A DNA stretch of 25,392 nucleotides from a virus. Of this stretch, positions 2,536-19,158 are shown piece by piece. The DNA is taken from IMG/VR virus record IMGVR_UViG_3300025889_000868, positions 1 through 25,392 of that record; one strand, written 5' to 3'. Positions within the stretch are counted from its first letter, which is position 1. Each line of letters begins with the position of its first letter. Position numbers and translations under genes: made by a program. The notes under the pieces are model-generated. The model worked only from the letters and a program-made list of their open reading frames with translations. It did not search any database and had not been told where the DNA came from.

Positions 2536-2817
2536 ATGGGTCTCACTACGAAACAATTACAATCTGAGTTGGTTACACAAGACCAACTACATTATTTTGA
2601 GATCAGAGATTTTGATGGTAATCGATATTGTCATTGTGGTAGTATGAAGGATGTGGAGAATATGTTATCTCTTCATCCTGAGTTTACATATGAGAAGATC
2701 TATCTTCCTCATTCACCAAAGACTGTTAATGTTACTCACACCTCAGTCACACCTGATCCAGAATTACCCGAACAAAAAATTCTACCTGAATCTGAACTAC
2801 AACCCCTAGATTTATGA
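2536..2817 (+). CDS. Small conserved phage protein of unknown function
   Basis: A 93-residue protein that I do not recognise. The open frame extends upstream into gp41, but the ATG at 2536, one base after the gp41 stop, is the sensible start. The first part (about 1-60) looks like a compact folded domain with HYFEIRDFDGNRYCHCGSMKD, including a CxC pair, and KDVENMLSLHPEFTYEKIYLP. The rest is a proline- and glutamate-rich tail that is probably disordered. It overlaps mazG by ATGA, so the two are likely co-translated. Confidence 0.65.
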   Translation: MGLTTKQLQSELVTQDQLHYFEIRDFDGNRYCHCGSMKDVENMLSLHPEFTYEKIYLPHSPKTVNVTHTSVTPDPELPEQKILPESELQPLDL

Positions 2818-3218
2818 CTGTAAATACTAAAGCATATCTTGAATTCGTCAATGCTGTCACGTCACAACCATCCCAAGACCACGAAGCTTTCGTCTATCGT
2901 ATTCAAGAATTGGAGGGTCAGGGTTTTCCTACCGAGCGACTGCTTACTGCTGCTGTAGGTATGTCTGCTGAAGCAGGTGAGTTTACTGAGGTGGTCAAGA
3001 AAATTGTCTTCCAAGGTAAACCTGTTAATGAAGAAAACCTTTTTCATCTGAAACGTGAACTTGGTGATATTATGTGGTATGTTGCTCAGGCATGTATGGG
3101 TCTTGATACTACCATTGATGAGATCATTGAGATGAATGTAGACAAACTGAAGTCTCGTTATCCTGGTGGTGAGTTTGATGTCCATTATTCTGAAAACCGT
3201 AAAGAAGGAGATGTATGA
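2814..3218 (+). CDS. mazG: MazG-type nucleoside triphosphate pyrophosphohydrolase
   Basis: MazG-family enzymes hydrolyse (d)NTPs to monophosphates and pyrophosphate. In cyanophages MazG was proposed to alter host (p)ppGpp but has been reported to act on nucleotides, preferring dGTP/GTP. The 134-residue product has a single MazG domain with two metal-binding helices: EAGEFTEVVKK (ExxE) and ELGDIMWYV (ExxD). The following helix is rich in acidic residues (TTIDEIIEMNVDKLKSRYP). The length matches the single-domain cyanophage form, not the double-domain E. coli protein. The start overlaps the preceding stop (ATGA), and the 3' end carries the AAGGAG ribosome site for the next gene. Confidence 0.92.
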   Translation: MTVNTKAYLEFVNAVTSQPSQDHEAFVYRIQELEGQGFPTERLLTAAVGMSAEAGEFTEVVKKIVFQGKPVNEENLFHLKRELGDIMWYVAQACMGLDTTIDEIIEMNVDKLKSRYPGGEFDVHYSENRKEGDV

Positions 3219-3412
3219 TTACTATTGAAGTAGATGTAAGACAAGCAGCTGCTATTCGTCAAGCATTATTTCGTGAACAAGATGGATATACTTATGATCC
3301 TAATTGTTGTCCTTCACGTATTGTAGATATCAGAAATGTTATCCAAAGTCTTGACAAACAGATTGAGAGTGAATTAAAATCTATTGAAGAAACTGAAGAA
3401 ACTAAAGAATGA
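3215..3412 (+). CDS. Small hypothetical protein
   Basis: A 65-residue protein with a good ribosome site (AAGGAG at 3205-3210) and ATGA overlaps with both neighbours. It starts MITIEVDVRQAAAIRQALFR, then has a cysteine pair (NCCPSR), a helical stretch DIRNVIQSLDKQIESEL and a glutamate-rich tail. I do not recognise a family. Its position between mazG and the CmoA-like gene suggests co-expression but says little about function. Confidence 0.65.
   Translation: MITIEVDVRQAAAIRQALFREQDGYTYDPNCCPSRIVDIRNVIQSLDKQIESELKSIEETEETKE
3351..3380 (+). promoter_or_regulatory. Possible sigma70-type promoter ahead of the CmoA-like gene
   Basis: TTGACA at 3351-3356 and TAAAAT at 3375-3380, spacer 18. The predicted start is near 3387, about 20 bases before the ATG at 3409. 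It lies within the preceding coding sequence. The -35 is perfect and the -10 has one mismatch. Confidence 0.45.
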
Positions 3413-4104
3413 CATACGACTTTTCTTTCGCTCATTCACCAGAAGGTTTTGACAATCACATTGATAGTTCTATCCGTGGGTATTCAAATCTTCTAGAAGA
3501 CACTGTATCTTTCTCCCGATACTTTGTGGAAGATGATACCAAAGTCGTTGATGTGGGTTGTTCTACTGGTAAACTCACTAAGATGATCATCAGTAACAAT
3601 CCCAATCGTAAAAGGGCTCAGTATGTGGGTGTAGAACTTGCTGGTAGTTTTTATGATGACTTGTCTGAACGTCAGACAGAGGTTCGTAAAGAATATCCCT
3701 GGGCCCTCCTAGAGTGGGTTCGTGGTAATGTCACTAACTATGAGTTCAAGAACTGTTCTCTGGTGACTTCACTATTCACTCTACAGTTCATGCCCAAGAC
3801 CACTAGACAGGAGACTATCAATAAGATCTATGATGGTCTCAATGAGGGTGGTGCATTTATCTTTGCAGAGAAGTTGATGTGTGAGAATGCATTCTTCCAG
3901 GAACTTCTTACCTTCAATCACTATGATTACAAGAGAAAGACTTTCACTGCAGAAGAGATCATGGACAAGGAGAAACAACTCCGTGACATGTTAAAACCAA
4001 ATACCTGGTCTGAACTAAAAGATATGGTTACCAAAGCTGGTTTTAAAGATTGTCAGATCTTTTGGAGAAACCATCAATTTGTTGGAGTTATTGCAATTAA
4101 GTAA
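3409..4104 (+). CDS. CmoA-like SAM enzyme (carboxy-SAM synthase family)
   Basis: The 231-residue product aligns from end to end with E. coli CmoA, which converts SAM and prephenate to carboxy-SAM for wobble-uridine modification of tRNA. Shared blocks include RGYSNLL (23-29), motif I VVDVGCSTG (46-54), LFTLQFM (122-128), the IYDGLNEGGAFIFAEKL region (140-156), LLTFNHYDYKR (166-176) and KAGF (209-212). One key difference: gapless alignment puts Glu188 at the place of E. coli Arg199, which I recall binds the carboxylate of carboxy-SAM; an Arg (192) lies one helical turn later. The enzyme may therefore have changed its substrate or bind it differently. It overlaps the AsnB-like gene (TAATG) and stands one gene from a DNA cytosine methyltransferase. 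Family membership is clear; the reaction is uncertain. Confidence 0.85.
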   Translation: MTYDFSFAHSPEGFDNHIDSSIRGYSNLLEDTVSFSRYFVEDDTKVVDVGCSTGKLTKMIISNNPNRKRAQYVGVELAGSFYDDLSERQTEVRKEYPWALLEWVRGNVTNYEFKNCSLVTSLFTLQFMPKTTRQETINKIYDGLNEGGAFIFAEKLMCENAFFQELLTFNHYDYKRKTFTAEEIMDKEKQLRDMLKPNTWSELKDMVTKAGFKDCQIFWRNHQFVGVIAIK

Positions 4105-5501
4105 TGTGTGGAATTATTGGTGGATTTGACATTCCACAAATTGAAAAAGGTCTTCATGCAATTGTTCATAGAGGACCAGACAATCAAAAAGTAATTCAGA
4201 CGGACAATGTCTATTTTGGACATGTCCGTTTGTCTATTATTGATACTAGTAGCGATTCAAATCAACCGTTTGTTTATGGTAACACTACCATGATTTTCAA
4301 TGGTACGATTTGGAACTATCGTGAGTTGAGAGAAGAATTGGATATTGAAACAAAAACTTCAGGTGATACTGAGGTTCTTTGTGCTATTTTGGATAAGTAC
4401 GGTATTGAAGGATTGAACAGAGTTCAGGGAATGTTTGCCATTGCATTCACTCAAGGTGATGGATCTATTACTATTGTGAGAGATCGTCATGGTGAAGTTC
4501 CTCTTCACTATTCTCTTATCTCAGGTCTGTTTTCATCATTCTCTTTCTGTTCAGAGATCAAAGGTCTTCTTGCCATAGGTGAGAGCGGTCAAACCATCAA
4601 GATGTTGGAACCTGGTGCATTTATTAAGGTTACATCTAATTTCACTGTGGAAGAAGGATATTGGTATAATATTAGAGAACATATCACAGATACTTCTACA
4701 TGGGGTTTTGATGACTCTAAGGCAATGATTTATAGAAATATTGTGATGGGTTCTTTTGAAAGAACTGTTGCCGATGTTCCTGTTGCTTGTCTTTTATCAG
4801 GTGGTATTGATTCTGCTATTACAACACTTGTTGCTTCTCAAAACATTCCAAATTTGGTGACATATATTGCAGTTCATAATGAGAACTCAAAGGATCTTAA
4901 GTCTGCCAGAGAAGTTGCTAAATATTTGGGAGTTGAACTGAGAGAAGTCAAAGTTCGACCTCCTACAGTTGATGATGTTAATGATGTTATCAATACTATT
5001 GAGATGCCATACAAGGCCCAGGTAGAGATTGGATACCCATGTATTCAGCTTGCAAGGAGAATCCATGAAGATGGATTCAAAGTGATTATGTCTGGTGAAG
5101 GTAGTGATGAACTCTGGGCATCCTACGGTATGAGTTACCATGGAATCAAAGATCATGGTTGGAAAGACTATAGAATTGGTTTGTTTGGTTCACAACACCG
5201 TAAAAACTTTTCGAGATGTAATAAGATCTTCATGAAGTATGGTATTGAATGTAGATTACCATTTCTCAATACTCAATTGGTAGAAACTGCACTTGGTCTT
5301 CCTCAAGATATTGTGTGGGATGGTAAGTCTAGACCTAAGGCAATTCTTCAAGAAGCATTTAGAGATCGACTTCCTGACGATATTATTGATAGGAAGAAAG
5401 TAGCATTTCAAGATGGTATGGGTATTAAGAGTCTTTATGAAAATATTGTTGACTCACCAAAAACATATTATAATGACCACTATAAGAAGAAGTTTACATG
5501 A
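4104..5501 (+). CDS. AsnB-like glutamine-hydrolysing amidotransferase
   Basis: The 465-residue protein has two domains. The N-terminal class II glutaminase begins with the nucleophile Cys2 (MCGIIGGF) and shows HRGPD, HVRLSIID, FNG (65-67) and SGD (86-88). The ATP-dependent synthetase domain has the PP-loop LLSGGIDS, MSGEGSDELWASY and IECRLPFL. Family enzymes release ammonia from glutamine, adenylate a carboxylate and form an amide; AsnB uses aspartate. Compared with E. coli AsnB (about 554 residues) it is shorter. The usual NGEIYN reads NGTIWN, replacing a Glu that I recall contacts glutamine, and RDRFGxKPLY reads RDRHGEVPLH. Sandwiched between a CmoA-like enzyme and a DNA cytosine methyltransferase with overlaps on both sides, it may amidate something other than aspartate. 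Cyanophage homologues are usually annotated asparagine synthase. Confidence 0.88.
   Translation: MCGIIGGFDIPQIEKGLHAIVHRGPDNQKVIQTDNVYFGHVRLSIIDTSSDSNQPFVYGNTTMIFNGTIWNYRELREELDIETKTSGDTEVLCAILDKYGIEGLNRVQGMFAIAFTQGDGSITIVRDRHGEVPLHYSLISGLFSSFSFCSEIKGLLAIGESGQTIKMLEPGAFIKVTSNFTVEEGYWYNIREHITDTSTWGFDDSKAMIYRNIVMGSFERTVADVPVACLLSGGIDSAITTLVASQNIPNLVTYIAVHNENSKDLKSAREVAKYLGVELREVKVRPPTVDDVNDVINTIEMPYKAQVEIGYPCIQLARRIHEDGFKVIMSGEGSDELWASYGMSYHGIKDHGWKDYRIGLFGSQHRKNFSRCNKIFMKYGIECRLPFLNTQLVETALGLPQDIVWDGKSRPKAILQEAFRDRLPDDIIDRKKVAFQDGMGIKSLYENIVDSPKTYYNDHYKKKFT
5446..5474 (+). promoter_or_regulatory. Possible promoter ahead of the DNA methyltransferase gene
   Basis: A perfect -10, TATAAT at 5469-5474, has TTGTTG 17 bases upstream (5446-5451). 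The predicted start is near 5481, just ahead of the ATG at 5498. The -35 matches only TTG of TTGACA. It lies inside the AsnB-like coding sequence, so a chance match is possible. Confidence 0.35.
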
Positions 5502-6619
5502 CCAAGTTGCCCTATAAATTACAAGATGTCTATGACGGTGAGGCTCAGGAAAAGTTCACCGTTATTTCTACATTCGCTGGTGGAGGTGGTTCCTCTACTG
5601 GGTATCGTCTTGCAGGTGGTAAAATCCTCTGTATTAATGAGTTTGTAGAGGAAGCAAGAAGGACATACTCACAAAACTATCCAACAACCACTATTCTTCC
5701 TGGTGACATCAAAGAGTTGACAGGTAAAGATTTCTTGGAAGCCACTGGTTTGAAACCAGGAGAACTTGATATTCTTGATGGTTCACCACCATGTTCTGCA
5801 TTTTCTGTTGCAGGATCTATGTGTCGTGGTGAAGGATCTAAACATTCTGATGGGTGGGGAAAGACCAAGAACTATTCTGATGGTAAGAAAGTAGAGAATA
5901 TTGAAGATCTCTTCTTTGAGTATATTCGTGTTGCTAATGATATTCGTCCAAAGGTTATTGTTGCGGAGAACGTCAAGGGTTTGACCATTGGTGAGGCTAA
6001 GACTTATTATGCAAAGATTACTAATGCATTTGAAGAAATTGGATATCTTGTCACTTCAAAAGTGATGAAAGCATCTCATTATGGTGTGGGTCAAGCAAGA
6101 GAAAGACTTATCTTTATTGCAGTTCGTGATGACATTGCAGATCAGATTGGTTTGAATGTCTTGACTGTATCTTCTCTGTTCCCTCCTACATCATCTAAAG
6201 ATACTACTATCGGTGATATTATTGATGGTGTAGAGAATGATCCTGATAATGTCAAGGGTCTTACGGAACACATGTTGAAGAGTGGTATCTATCAGAGTGT
6301 TGTGAAGAAAATGCCTAAGGATCCTAAAAAGATTCTTTCAGGTATGGATTATCATGAGAAGGGTCATTGTTTCAATACTAAGAGAGCATCATTCTACAAA
6401 CCATCTCCTACACTGACTGCAAGTGGTGGTTTGATTCACTGGAATGAAGACAGAGTATTATCTGTTCCAGAACTTAAACGTATCCAATCACTTCCTGATG
6501 ATTTCATTCTGACTGGTTCTCATTCACAACAAACAGAGAGAGTTGGTCGTATGGTTCCTCCTCTGATGATGAAAGCCATTGCGGAGAATATTTATAAAGA
6601 GGTTCTATCTAAACTCTAA
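5498..6619 (+). CDS. DNA cytosine-C5 (carboxy)methyltransferase candidate
   Basis: The 373-residue protein has the ordered motifs of DNA C5-cytosine methyltransferases: motif I STFAGGGGSSTGY (24-36), motif IV with catalytic Cys99 in GSPPCSAFSVAG, motif VI AENVKG (156-161), motif VIII QARERLIFIAVR (199-210), motif IX region RASFYKPSPTLTASGG and motif X VGRMVPP (349-355). The enzyme flips a cytosine, attacks C6 through Cys99 and transfers a one-carbon group from SAM to C5. Motif X normally reads GNxVPP; here Asn is Arg351 (codon CGT at 6548-6550). Because motif X lines the SAM pocket, this may fit an unusual donor such as carboxy-SAM. The target domain between motifs VIII and IX is short. The ATG overlaps the AsnB-like stop (ATGA). 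There is no restriction partner in the window. Confidence 0.88.
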   Translation: MTKLPYKLQDVYDGEAQEKFTVISTFAGGGGSSTGYRLAGGKILCINEFVEEARRTYSQNYPTTTILPGDIKELTGKDFLEATGLKPGELDILDGSPPCSAFSVAGSMCRGEGSKHSDGWGKTKNYSDGKKVENIEDLFFEYIRVANDIRPKVIVAENVKGLTIGEAKTYYAKITNAFEEIGYLVTSKVMKASHYGVGQARERLIFIAVRDDIADQIGLNVLTVSSLFPPTSSKDTTIGDIIDGVENDPDNVKGLTEHMLKSGIYQSVVKKMPKDPKKILSGMDYHEKGHCFNTKRASFYKPSPTLTASGGLIHWNEDRVLSVPELKRIQSLPDDFILTGSHSQQTERVGRMVPPLMMKAIAENIYKEVLSKL

Positions 6620-17493: not shown

Positions 17494-18684
17494 ATGCAGT
17501 ACGATTTCGTAGCAAGTAAAGAAAATAACAATAACAAACAGACCGTCAAGGGGATGACGGTCTTCAACACAGAACAAGTTAATACCAAGAAACAACCAAT
17601 GTTTTTTGGTAAACCCCTAGGAATACAAAGATACGACTCATATAAGTACCCAGTCTTTGAGAAACTGACTACTCAACAACTGGGTTATTTCTGGAGACCA
17701 GAAGAGGTTTCTCTACAAAAAGATAGAGCGGACTATCAAACACTTCGTCCTGAACAGAAACATATCTATACTTCTAACTTAAAGTATCAGATTATGTTGG
17801 ACTCTGTTCAAGGTCGTGGTCCTGGTATGGCTTTCATTCCTTACTGTTCACTTCCTGAACTGGAAGCGTGTATGGAAGTCTGGGGATTTATGGAGATGAT
17901 TCACAGTCGTTCCTATACATATATTATCAAGAACGTATATCCTGATCCTAGTGATATCTTTGATCATATCATTACAGACAATCGTATTCTTGAAAGGGCT
18001 TCAAGTGTGACGGAGTCCTATGATGCATTTATCGAAAGTGCTCAAACATGGGGTAATGGTAATCTGTGGCAAGAAGATTTTCGTGATACATACACTTCAC
18101 AGGATCAAATCAAAGATGTCAAACGTAAACTCTACAGAGCAGTCGCAAACGTTAACATTCTTGAAGGTATTCGGTTCTACGTTAGTTTTGCTTGTAGTTT
18201 CGCCTTTGGTGAACTTAAACTCATGGAGGGATCTTCCAAAATCATCTCACTGATTGCAAGAGATGAAAATCAACATCTTGCTATCACTCAGAATATTCTG
18301 AACAAGTGGTCACAGGGTGATGATCCTGATATGAAACAGATTGCTAAAGAAGAAGAAGAGTGGGTCTACGCAATGTTTGACCGTGCTGTCAACGAAGAGA
18401 AGAAGTGGGCCGACTATCTATTCAAGGATGGATCCATGATTGGTCTGAATGATGTACTTCTTCAGAAGTATGTTGAGTGGATCGCCAATCGTCGTATGAA
18501 GTCGATTGGTCTCAAGCCAGTCTATGATGTGGCTGCCAAGAATAATCCTCTCCCATGGACACAACATTGGATTTCTTCTAAGGGTCTTCAAGTTGCGCCA
18601 CAAGAAACAGAGGTTGAAAGTTACCTAATTGGAGGAATCAAACAAGATGTTAAGAAAGATACTTTCTCGGGTTTCCAACTCTAA
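17494..18684 (+). CDS. nrdB: Ribonucleotide reductase class Ia, small subunit
   Basis: Provides the diiron-tyrosyl radical that NrdA uses. The 396-residue protein shows the family landmarks: DRADYQTL (Asp iron ligand), LDSVQGR, FMEMIHSRSYTYII (Glu and His ligands with the radical Tyr in RSYT), EGIRFYVSFACSFAF (Glu ligand) and ARDENQHLAI (Glu and His ligands). All expected ligands are present, so the enzyme should be active. The start ATG at 17494 has a GAGGTG ribosome site. An N-terminal extension of about 20 Asn/Lys-rich residues precedes the domain. The gene is uninterrupted, unlike T4 nrdB with its intron. Confidence 0.97.
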   Translation: MQYDFVASKENNNNKQTVKGMTVFNTEQVNTKKQPMFFGKPLGIQRYDSYKYPVFEKLTTQQLGYFWRPEEVSLQKDRADYQTLRPEQKHIYTSNLKYQIMLDSVQGRGPGMAFIPYCSLPELEACMEVWGFMEMIHSRSYTYIIKNVYPDPSDIFDHIITDNRILERASSVTESYDAFIESAQTWGNGNLWQEDFRDTYTSQDQIKDVKRKLYRAVANVNILEGIRFYVSFACSFAFGELKLMEGSSKIISLIARDENQHLAITQNILNKWSQGDDPDMKQIAKEEEEWVYAMFDRAVNEEKKWADYLFKDGSMIGLNDVLLQKYVEWIANRRMKSIGLKPVYDVAAKNNPLPWTQHWISSKGLQVAPQETEVESYLIGGIKQDVKKDTFSGFQL

Positions 18685-18738: not shown

Positions 18739-19158
18739 TCACTTATCGTTTCGCATAACAACTTCATAAATTCTAGTTCTTTCACTCACAAAAAATCTTC
18801 CTTCAATATTTGTATTATAATAACCATCAGTCATTAGAACATCTCTTTTGAATTGTTCCATAGTTTCGTAATAAGACATTGATTTTTTGTGAGGACACAA
18901 ATAAAGTATTTCTCTTAAAAATTTATCCTCACCAAGAAGTTTTACATCTTCATTTAATTCATCACAAGATCCAAAATATTTTTTCCAATCACTCTCTTTT
19001 GTTTTTCTTCTACCAGTCTTTTTATCTTTTCTTCTTGTCCAAAAAGATTTCTTACCAACATACTTTCTATCATTTGTTAAATTTGTTATGAGGTAAACAA
19101 ATCCTTCCATACCTTTTGGTGCTTCAGTAAAGTTTTCTTCGTTATATTTCCAAGACAT
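18739..19158 (-). CDS. GIY-YIG family endonuclease, probably homing type
   Basis: A 139-residue protein on the minus strand, the only such gene in the window. It shows the GIY-YIG core: GFVYLI (19-24) for GIY and KYVGKK (32-37) for YIG, then SDWKKYFGS, the catalytic-Glu helix SYYETMEQFK (Glu98) and the Asn-containing YYNTNIEG. T4-like phages carry such nucleases as free-standing homing endonucleases (Seg type), and the insertion beside nrdB fits, since nrd genes are classic homing targets. It has an A/T-rich composition and lacks a clear DNA-binding tail. No convincing promoter was found upstream on its strand. Confidence 0.75.
   Translation of the reverse strand: MSWKYNEENFTEAPKGMEGFVYLITNLTNDRKYVGKKSFWTRRKDKKTGRRKTKESDWKKYFGSCDELNEDVKLLGEDKFLREILYLCPHKKSMSYYETMEQFKRDVLMTDGYYNTNIEGRFFVSERTRIYEVVMRNDK

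Follow-up and report, generated by a model that had tools for sequence, protein, structure and literature searches.

A predicted glutaminase-type CmoY in a probable cyanophage cytosine hypermodification operon and its exchange with a glycine-type ligase between near-identical phages

In the virus record IMGVR_UViG_3300025889_000868 (IMG/VR), a marine cyanophage sequence whose entire 25,392 bases form the window analyzed here, three overlapping genes probably constitute a CmoA–CmoX–CmoY DNA hypermodification operon in which a glutaminase-type CmoY yields 5-carbamoylmethylcytosine. A CmoA–CmoX–CmoY system was described for Synechococcus phage S-B43 in December 2025 (Nat Commun, PMC12783734). The first-pass annotation of the window, which proposed carboxymethylation of cytosine followed by amidation, was largely right in its central chemistry, which has thus already been published and is not new. 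The new elements are the linkage of the ligase with cmoA and/or cmoX in nearly all of the best-matching viral contigs, across more than one gene order, and the in-place exchange of ligases between near-identical phages.

The tandem arrangement of CmoA-like, AsnB-like and C5-methyltransferase genes noted in that annotation agrees with the coordinates and the sequence:

3409..4104, + strand: cmoA, predicted carboxy-S-adenosylmethionine (carboxy-SAM) synthase, 231 amino acids
4104..5501, + strand: cmoY, glutamine-hydrolysing (AsnB-like) type, predicted amide ligase for DNA 5-carboxymethylcytosine, 465 amino acids
5498..6619, + strand: cmoX, predicted DNA cytosine C5-carboxymethyltransferase, 373 amino acids
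4102..4106, + strand: sequence TAATG, where the cmoA stop codon overlaps the cmoY start codon
5498..5501, + strand: sequence ATGA, where the cmoY stop codon overlaps the cmoX start codon

CmoA and CmoX

In S-B43 (PMC12783734), CmoA was shown experimentally to convert S-adenosylmethionine (SAM) and prephenate to carboxy-SAM, and its CmoX (structure, PDB 8YF3) carboxymethylates C5 of cytosine in GC motifs with the involvement of Cys98 and Arg350. CmoX uses carboxy-SAM as its only donor and refuses SAM, and R350 contacts the carboxymethyl group. S-B43 CmoY joins glycine to this group, and glycyl-carboxymethyl-deoxycytidine was detected in the phage DNA.

The window CmoA shares 203 of its 231 residues with the S-B43 protein (88%) and matches TIGR00740 over residues 11–231 (E=7e-33; 114 bits, curated cut-off 193) and E. 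coli CmoA (PDB 4GEK, E=5e-27). The window CmoX contains a DNA_methylase domain (PF00145, E=7e-53) and is identical to 8YF3 in 332 of 373 alignment columns (89%); residues 275–372 are identical, and many substitutions cluster at 233–274. It retains SPPC at 96–99 with the catalytic C99 (S95–C98 in S-B43) and, in RVGR at 348–351, the carboxylate-binding R351 equivalent to S-B43 R350. Both the SPPC motif and this arginine are invariant across 78 distinct relatives.

Because the S-B43 enzymes have been characterized biochemically, the identities reach 88–89%, and the SPPC motif and arginine are kept, carboxy-SAM synthesis and cytosine carboxymethylation are predicted for the window with high confidence. 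CmoA would form carboxy-SAM from SAM and prephenate, and CmoX would transfer the carboxymethyl group to cytosine C5, probably in GC dinucleotides. The carboxymethylcytosine proposed for the window is a product demonstrated for close homologs in S-B43 (PMC12783734).

In six contigs (L048, L051, L053, L056, L061 and L067), two CmoX genes stand in tandem, both with SPPC and the arginine. The extra copy is ~70% identical to the window CmoX and perhaps has a second target specificity.

The glutaminase-type ligase

The product of the middle gene combines GATase_7/GATase_6 and Asn_synthase domains and has an intact class II glutaminase site together with a PP-loop synthetase domain. C2, R42, N66–G67, D88 and the PP-loop motif SGGxDS are invariant in 49 distinct relatives, as is K432, which corresponds to K449 of AsnB and K466 of the human enzyme. 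An AlphaFold2 model (predicted local distance difference test score 77.5, with low confidence at the active-site loop 333–342) gave AsnB 1CT9 as the best structural match, with Z 30.9 over 424 residues. The next matches were the hydroxyamidotransferase TsnB9 (Z 29.5) and then human asparagine synthetase (ASNS). A comparison with S-B43 CmoY showed that only the PP-loop synthetase domain is common to the two proteins (hhalign 97%, 24% identity, 221 columns). A scan of bacterial genomes with two short peptide patterns, a weak test, found no ligase relatives.

A second CmoY cluster (A0A7T0Q3R0) is described as carrying a glutaminase domain, with glutamine-derived ammonia suggested as its substrate (PMC12783734). 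By its architecture, the window ligase probably belongs to this cluster. The intact glutaminase residues, the AsnB-like fold and the published suggestion of glutamine-derived ammonia together favor 5-carbamoylmethylcytosine as the most likely product predicted for this locus.

In the proposed mechanism, the glutaminase-type CmoY would adenylate the 5-carboxymethyl carboxylate using adenosine triphosphate, and ammonia released at its own glutaminase site would be channelled to attack the adenylate, giving 5-carbamoylmethylcytosine. The negative charge would be lost on amidation, and the DNA could be shielded by its modified base from cytosine-specific restriction. Swapping or losing the ligase would alter the group that is exposed but leave carboxymethylation in place. 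Of the product proposed in the first-pass annotation, the carboxymethyl half is supported by the S-B43 experiments, and the carbamoylmethyl half is the most plausible interpretation of the ligase type. Its suggestion that the modification protects against restriction is backed in vitro only, by the finding that 5-carboxymethylcytosine (5cxmC) stopped HhaI cleavage (PMC12783734). No report of carbamoylmethylcytosine in DNA was found in the open-access literature, judged by titles and search hits.

Linkage of the ligase with cmoA and cmoX

Relatives of the window proteins were collected in two scans, each limited to the top 80 hits for the window, so counts of ligase types across contigs do not represent frequencies. 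A cmoA and/or cmoX gene lies beside the ligase relative in 79 of 80 viral contigs; in the lone exception, L074, the contig ends within the ligase gene. The order is cmoA–ligase–cmoX in cyanophages, ligase–cmoX–cmoA in more distant contigs and cmoX–ligase–cmoA in Streptomyces phage TurkishDelight. With 79 of 80 contigs, the coupling of the ligase with cmoA/cmoX, anticipated by the earlier annotation, is beyond chance; since gene order varies among lineages, the linkage is not merely inherited synteny.

Among isolates, S-B43, S-B05 and RB11-B carry the glycine-type ligase, and RN05-S and S-CRM01 have cmoA and cmoX without a ligase in between. A profile search of the S-B43, RN05-S and S-CRM01 genomes detected no glutaminase-type ligase elsewhere; S-B43 gave the glycine type only.

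Ligase exchange between near-identical phages

The contigs L028, with a glutaminase-type ligase, and L132, with a glycine-type ligase, share 99.0% identity across the 3,556 bases up to the cmoA stop codon and again 99.0% across the 2,726 bases from the cmoX ATG onward. Their CmoX proteins are identical, whereas the intervening ligases share 21% identity. The DNA identities derive from blastn blocks; identities of gapped alignments of the middle part, inflated by cheap gaps, were discarded. The compared stretch is as follows:

L028 4306–7513 versus L132 2865–5487: exchange region, breakpoints at the cmoA stop and the cmoX start

The pairs L043/L111 and L036/L088 show the same exchange pattern, with an extra gene inserted by the glycine ligase. 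A quick maximum-likelihood tree of CmoX from 65 loci implies at least 10 changes of ligase state; the starred branches by themselves require 7 changes of the glutaminase type. As the contigs are metagenome assemblies, one pair could be an assembly chimera; several independent pairs are concordant, and the same position distinguishes the isolates S-B43 and RN05-S, one with and one without a ligase. The word "swap" is missing from the main text of PMC12783734, and the parts considered give no account of ligase exchange.

Given that ~99% identical flanks carry either an ammonia- or a glycine-type ligase, the end group of the modification resembles an interchangeable cassette. It is very likely that both ligase types share one substrate, the CmoX product, because the position is taken by the proven glycine-ligase type in backgrounds that are 99% identical. 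Exchange or loss suggests selection by modification-dependent nucleases. On balance, we lean slightly towards a broader hypothesis: 5-carbamoylmethylcytosine would occur naturally in uncultured marine cyanophages, and a cassette between cmoA and cmoX (ammonia type, glycine type or none) would vary the end group in answer to modification-dependent host nucleases.

Additional genes were observed between cmoA and the glycine ligase in several contigs. Four of them (L088 3140–4189, L091 941–1948, L093 1813–2760 and L104 1102–2106) encode proteins that appear ParB-like by eye; a Pfam scan of one of the four returned no match. In L095 (2589–3920) and L111 (2849–4195), the position is occupied by a protein with a DGGHR motif, and the one scanned gave a weak GmrSD_N/HNH match.

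Alternative explanations

Several points weigh against a carbamoylmethyl product. The residues E332, D335, E336 and R371 correspond to E364, D367, E368 and R403 of human ASNS, which serve the aspartyl-AMP (adenosine monophosphate) intermediate; since they are kept, these positions would also suit an amino-acid-like substrate. TsnB9 demonstrates that the same fold can deliver hydroxylamine instead of ammonia. The glutaminase type was not found among the isolated cyanophages of the collection, save for a remote 25% match in S-SCSM1, and the sole isolate with a full-length relative above 40% identity is a Streptomyces phage. Finally, the authors of the S-B43 study failed to obtain a soluble glutaminase-type CmoY (PMC12783734).

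It is conceivable, though unlikely, that carboxymethylcytosine is made and the AsnB-like ligase adds another amine, such as glycine, another amino acid or hydroxylamine, with the glutaminase domain feeding a different nitrogen donor or acting as a regulator. Ammonia is not the substrate of every AsnB-fold enzyme, beta-lactam synthetase being one exception. TsnB9 is the second-best structural match, and the ligase that S-B43 carries at this position attaches glycine (PMC12783734). However, relatives of the window ligase all retain the glutaminase nucleophile and its partner residues, whereas beta-lactam synthetase lacks the catalytic cysteine. In addition, the glycine ligase lacks a glutaminase domain and is just 21% identical to the glutaminase type.

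We consider it very improbable that the AsnB-like protein supplies asparagine for phage proteins and stands beside its neighbors by chance, even though AsnB is its closest fold and the aspartyl-AMP positions of human ASNS are matched. The ligase misses the curated cut-offs for asparagine synthetase, with 262 bits on NF006949 (AsnB; curated 499) and 261.9 bits on TIGR01536 (curated 267.1). The TTxRAS segment of the E. coli and human asparagine synthetases is replaced by AQVEIG, in which A305, Q306, E308 and I309 are invariant in relatives. Together with the linkage to cmoA/cmoX in more than one gene order and the alternation of the slot with a ligase type proven on DNA, these differences led us to reject asparagine supply. 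Plain 5-methylcytosine methylation, with CmoA working in host or phage tRNA modification, has hardly any likelihood and was likewise rejected: databases annotate both proteins as methyltransferases, but S-B43 CmoX takes carboxy-SAM only, the window keeps the arginine contacting the carboxymethyl group, and the S-B43 study reports no CmoB homologue in that phage (PMC12783734). The glutaminase-type hypermodification operon is retained as the preferred explanation.

Genomic surroundings

The genes upstream of cmoA are as follows:

2814–3218, + strand: MazG-like pyrophosphohydrolase, upstream of cmoA
3215–3412, + strand: 65-amino-acid open reading frame (ORF) between the MazG-like gene and cmoA, overlapping cmoA head to tail

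The MazG-like gene, the small ORF and cmoA overlap successively head to tail; in S-B43, S-B05, RB11-B and RN05-S, cmoA also follows a gene of MazG type and a short ORF. Further upstream, uvsX- and helicase-like ORFs were recognized by eye, as in a T4-like cyanophage; the same genes are annotated at the equivalent place in RN05-S, RB11-B and S-B05. The observed/expected ratio of GpC was 0.60 in the window and 0.72 around the S-B43 locus, and was judged uninformative on modification. Elsewhere in the window, a SegE-type GIY-YIG homing endonuclease gene (18739–19158, − strand) lies just downstream of an ORF ending at 18684 and adjoins two ORFs resembling ribonucleotide reductase genes.

Related loci in other phages

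Erwinia phage pEa_SNUABM_20 (MZ443771), a jumbo phage, encodes at ~33.0–35.0 kb (L144) a CmoX-like protein with an apparent intein and the carboxylate-binding arginine (ERLGR). The insertion point of the intein lies precisely ahead of the active-site cysteine (DGSPP|CFTED...VVHN|CKGFSTAG), and splicing would therefore restore the SPPC active site. A second region of this phage (L142, 4935–9813) encodes a CmoA homologue followed by a 420-amino-acid protein with a weak glycosyltransferase match (E=0.32). The remaining genes code for a DUF1611 protein, an alanine-racemase-like protein and a PP-loop ligase similar to the glycine CmoY. This cluster may be a carboxymethylcytosine pathway capped by another, perhaps D-, amino acid.

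In Moraxella phage Mcat8 (L143, 3938–5645), a CmoX homologue with 44% identity is directly followed by a small gene with a SAM methyltransferase fold. This gene may be CmoA, which would suggest that the system extends outside the marine set.

Significance

The locus adds to a recently reported DNA modification system, and its ligase is of the kind that the original authors were unable to assay; many close natural variants of this ligase (56–100% identical) are at hand, some of which may be soluble. Ligase exchange in near-identical phages amounts to a natural experiment on the reasons for varying the terminal group of a hypermodified base, and the exchanged pairs provide matched material for modification-dependent defence assays.

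Comparison with known systems

The predicted base resembles 5-carbamoylmethyluridine (ncm5U) of the eukaryotic tRNA wobble position in bearing a carbamoylmethyl group on pyrimidine C5. That modification differs in that it occurs in RNA, on uridine, and arises through Elongator chemistry rather than carboxy-SAM. With AsnB 1CT9, the window ligase shares the fold, the glutaminase site, the PP-loop, the GEGSDE motif and the catalytic lysine; it differs in being ~90 residues shorter, in carrying AQVEIG for TTxRAS, in scoring below the curated threshold and in its DNA-modification gene context. In phage TurkishDelight, genes 123–125 likewise encode CmoX-, glutamine amidotransferase- and CmoA-like proteins, the amidotransferase being 41.6% identical over its full length, whereas the order is cmoX–amidotransferase–cmoA and ParB-like genes lie upstream. 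The A0A7T0Q3R0 cluster shares the glutaminase domain and AMP-forming synthetase beside CmoX and CmoA (PMC12783734). The S-B43 system is alike in its MazG-adjacent position within the replication gene block, its gene order and its key residues; in contrast, its ligase is a 271-amino-acid glycine ligase without a glutaminase domain, in place of the 465-amino-acid ligase with this domain in the window.

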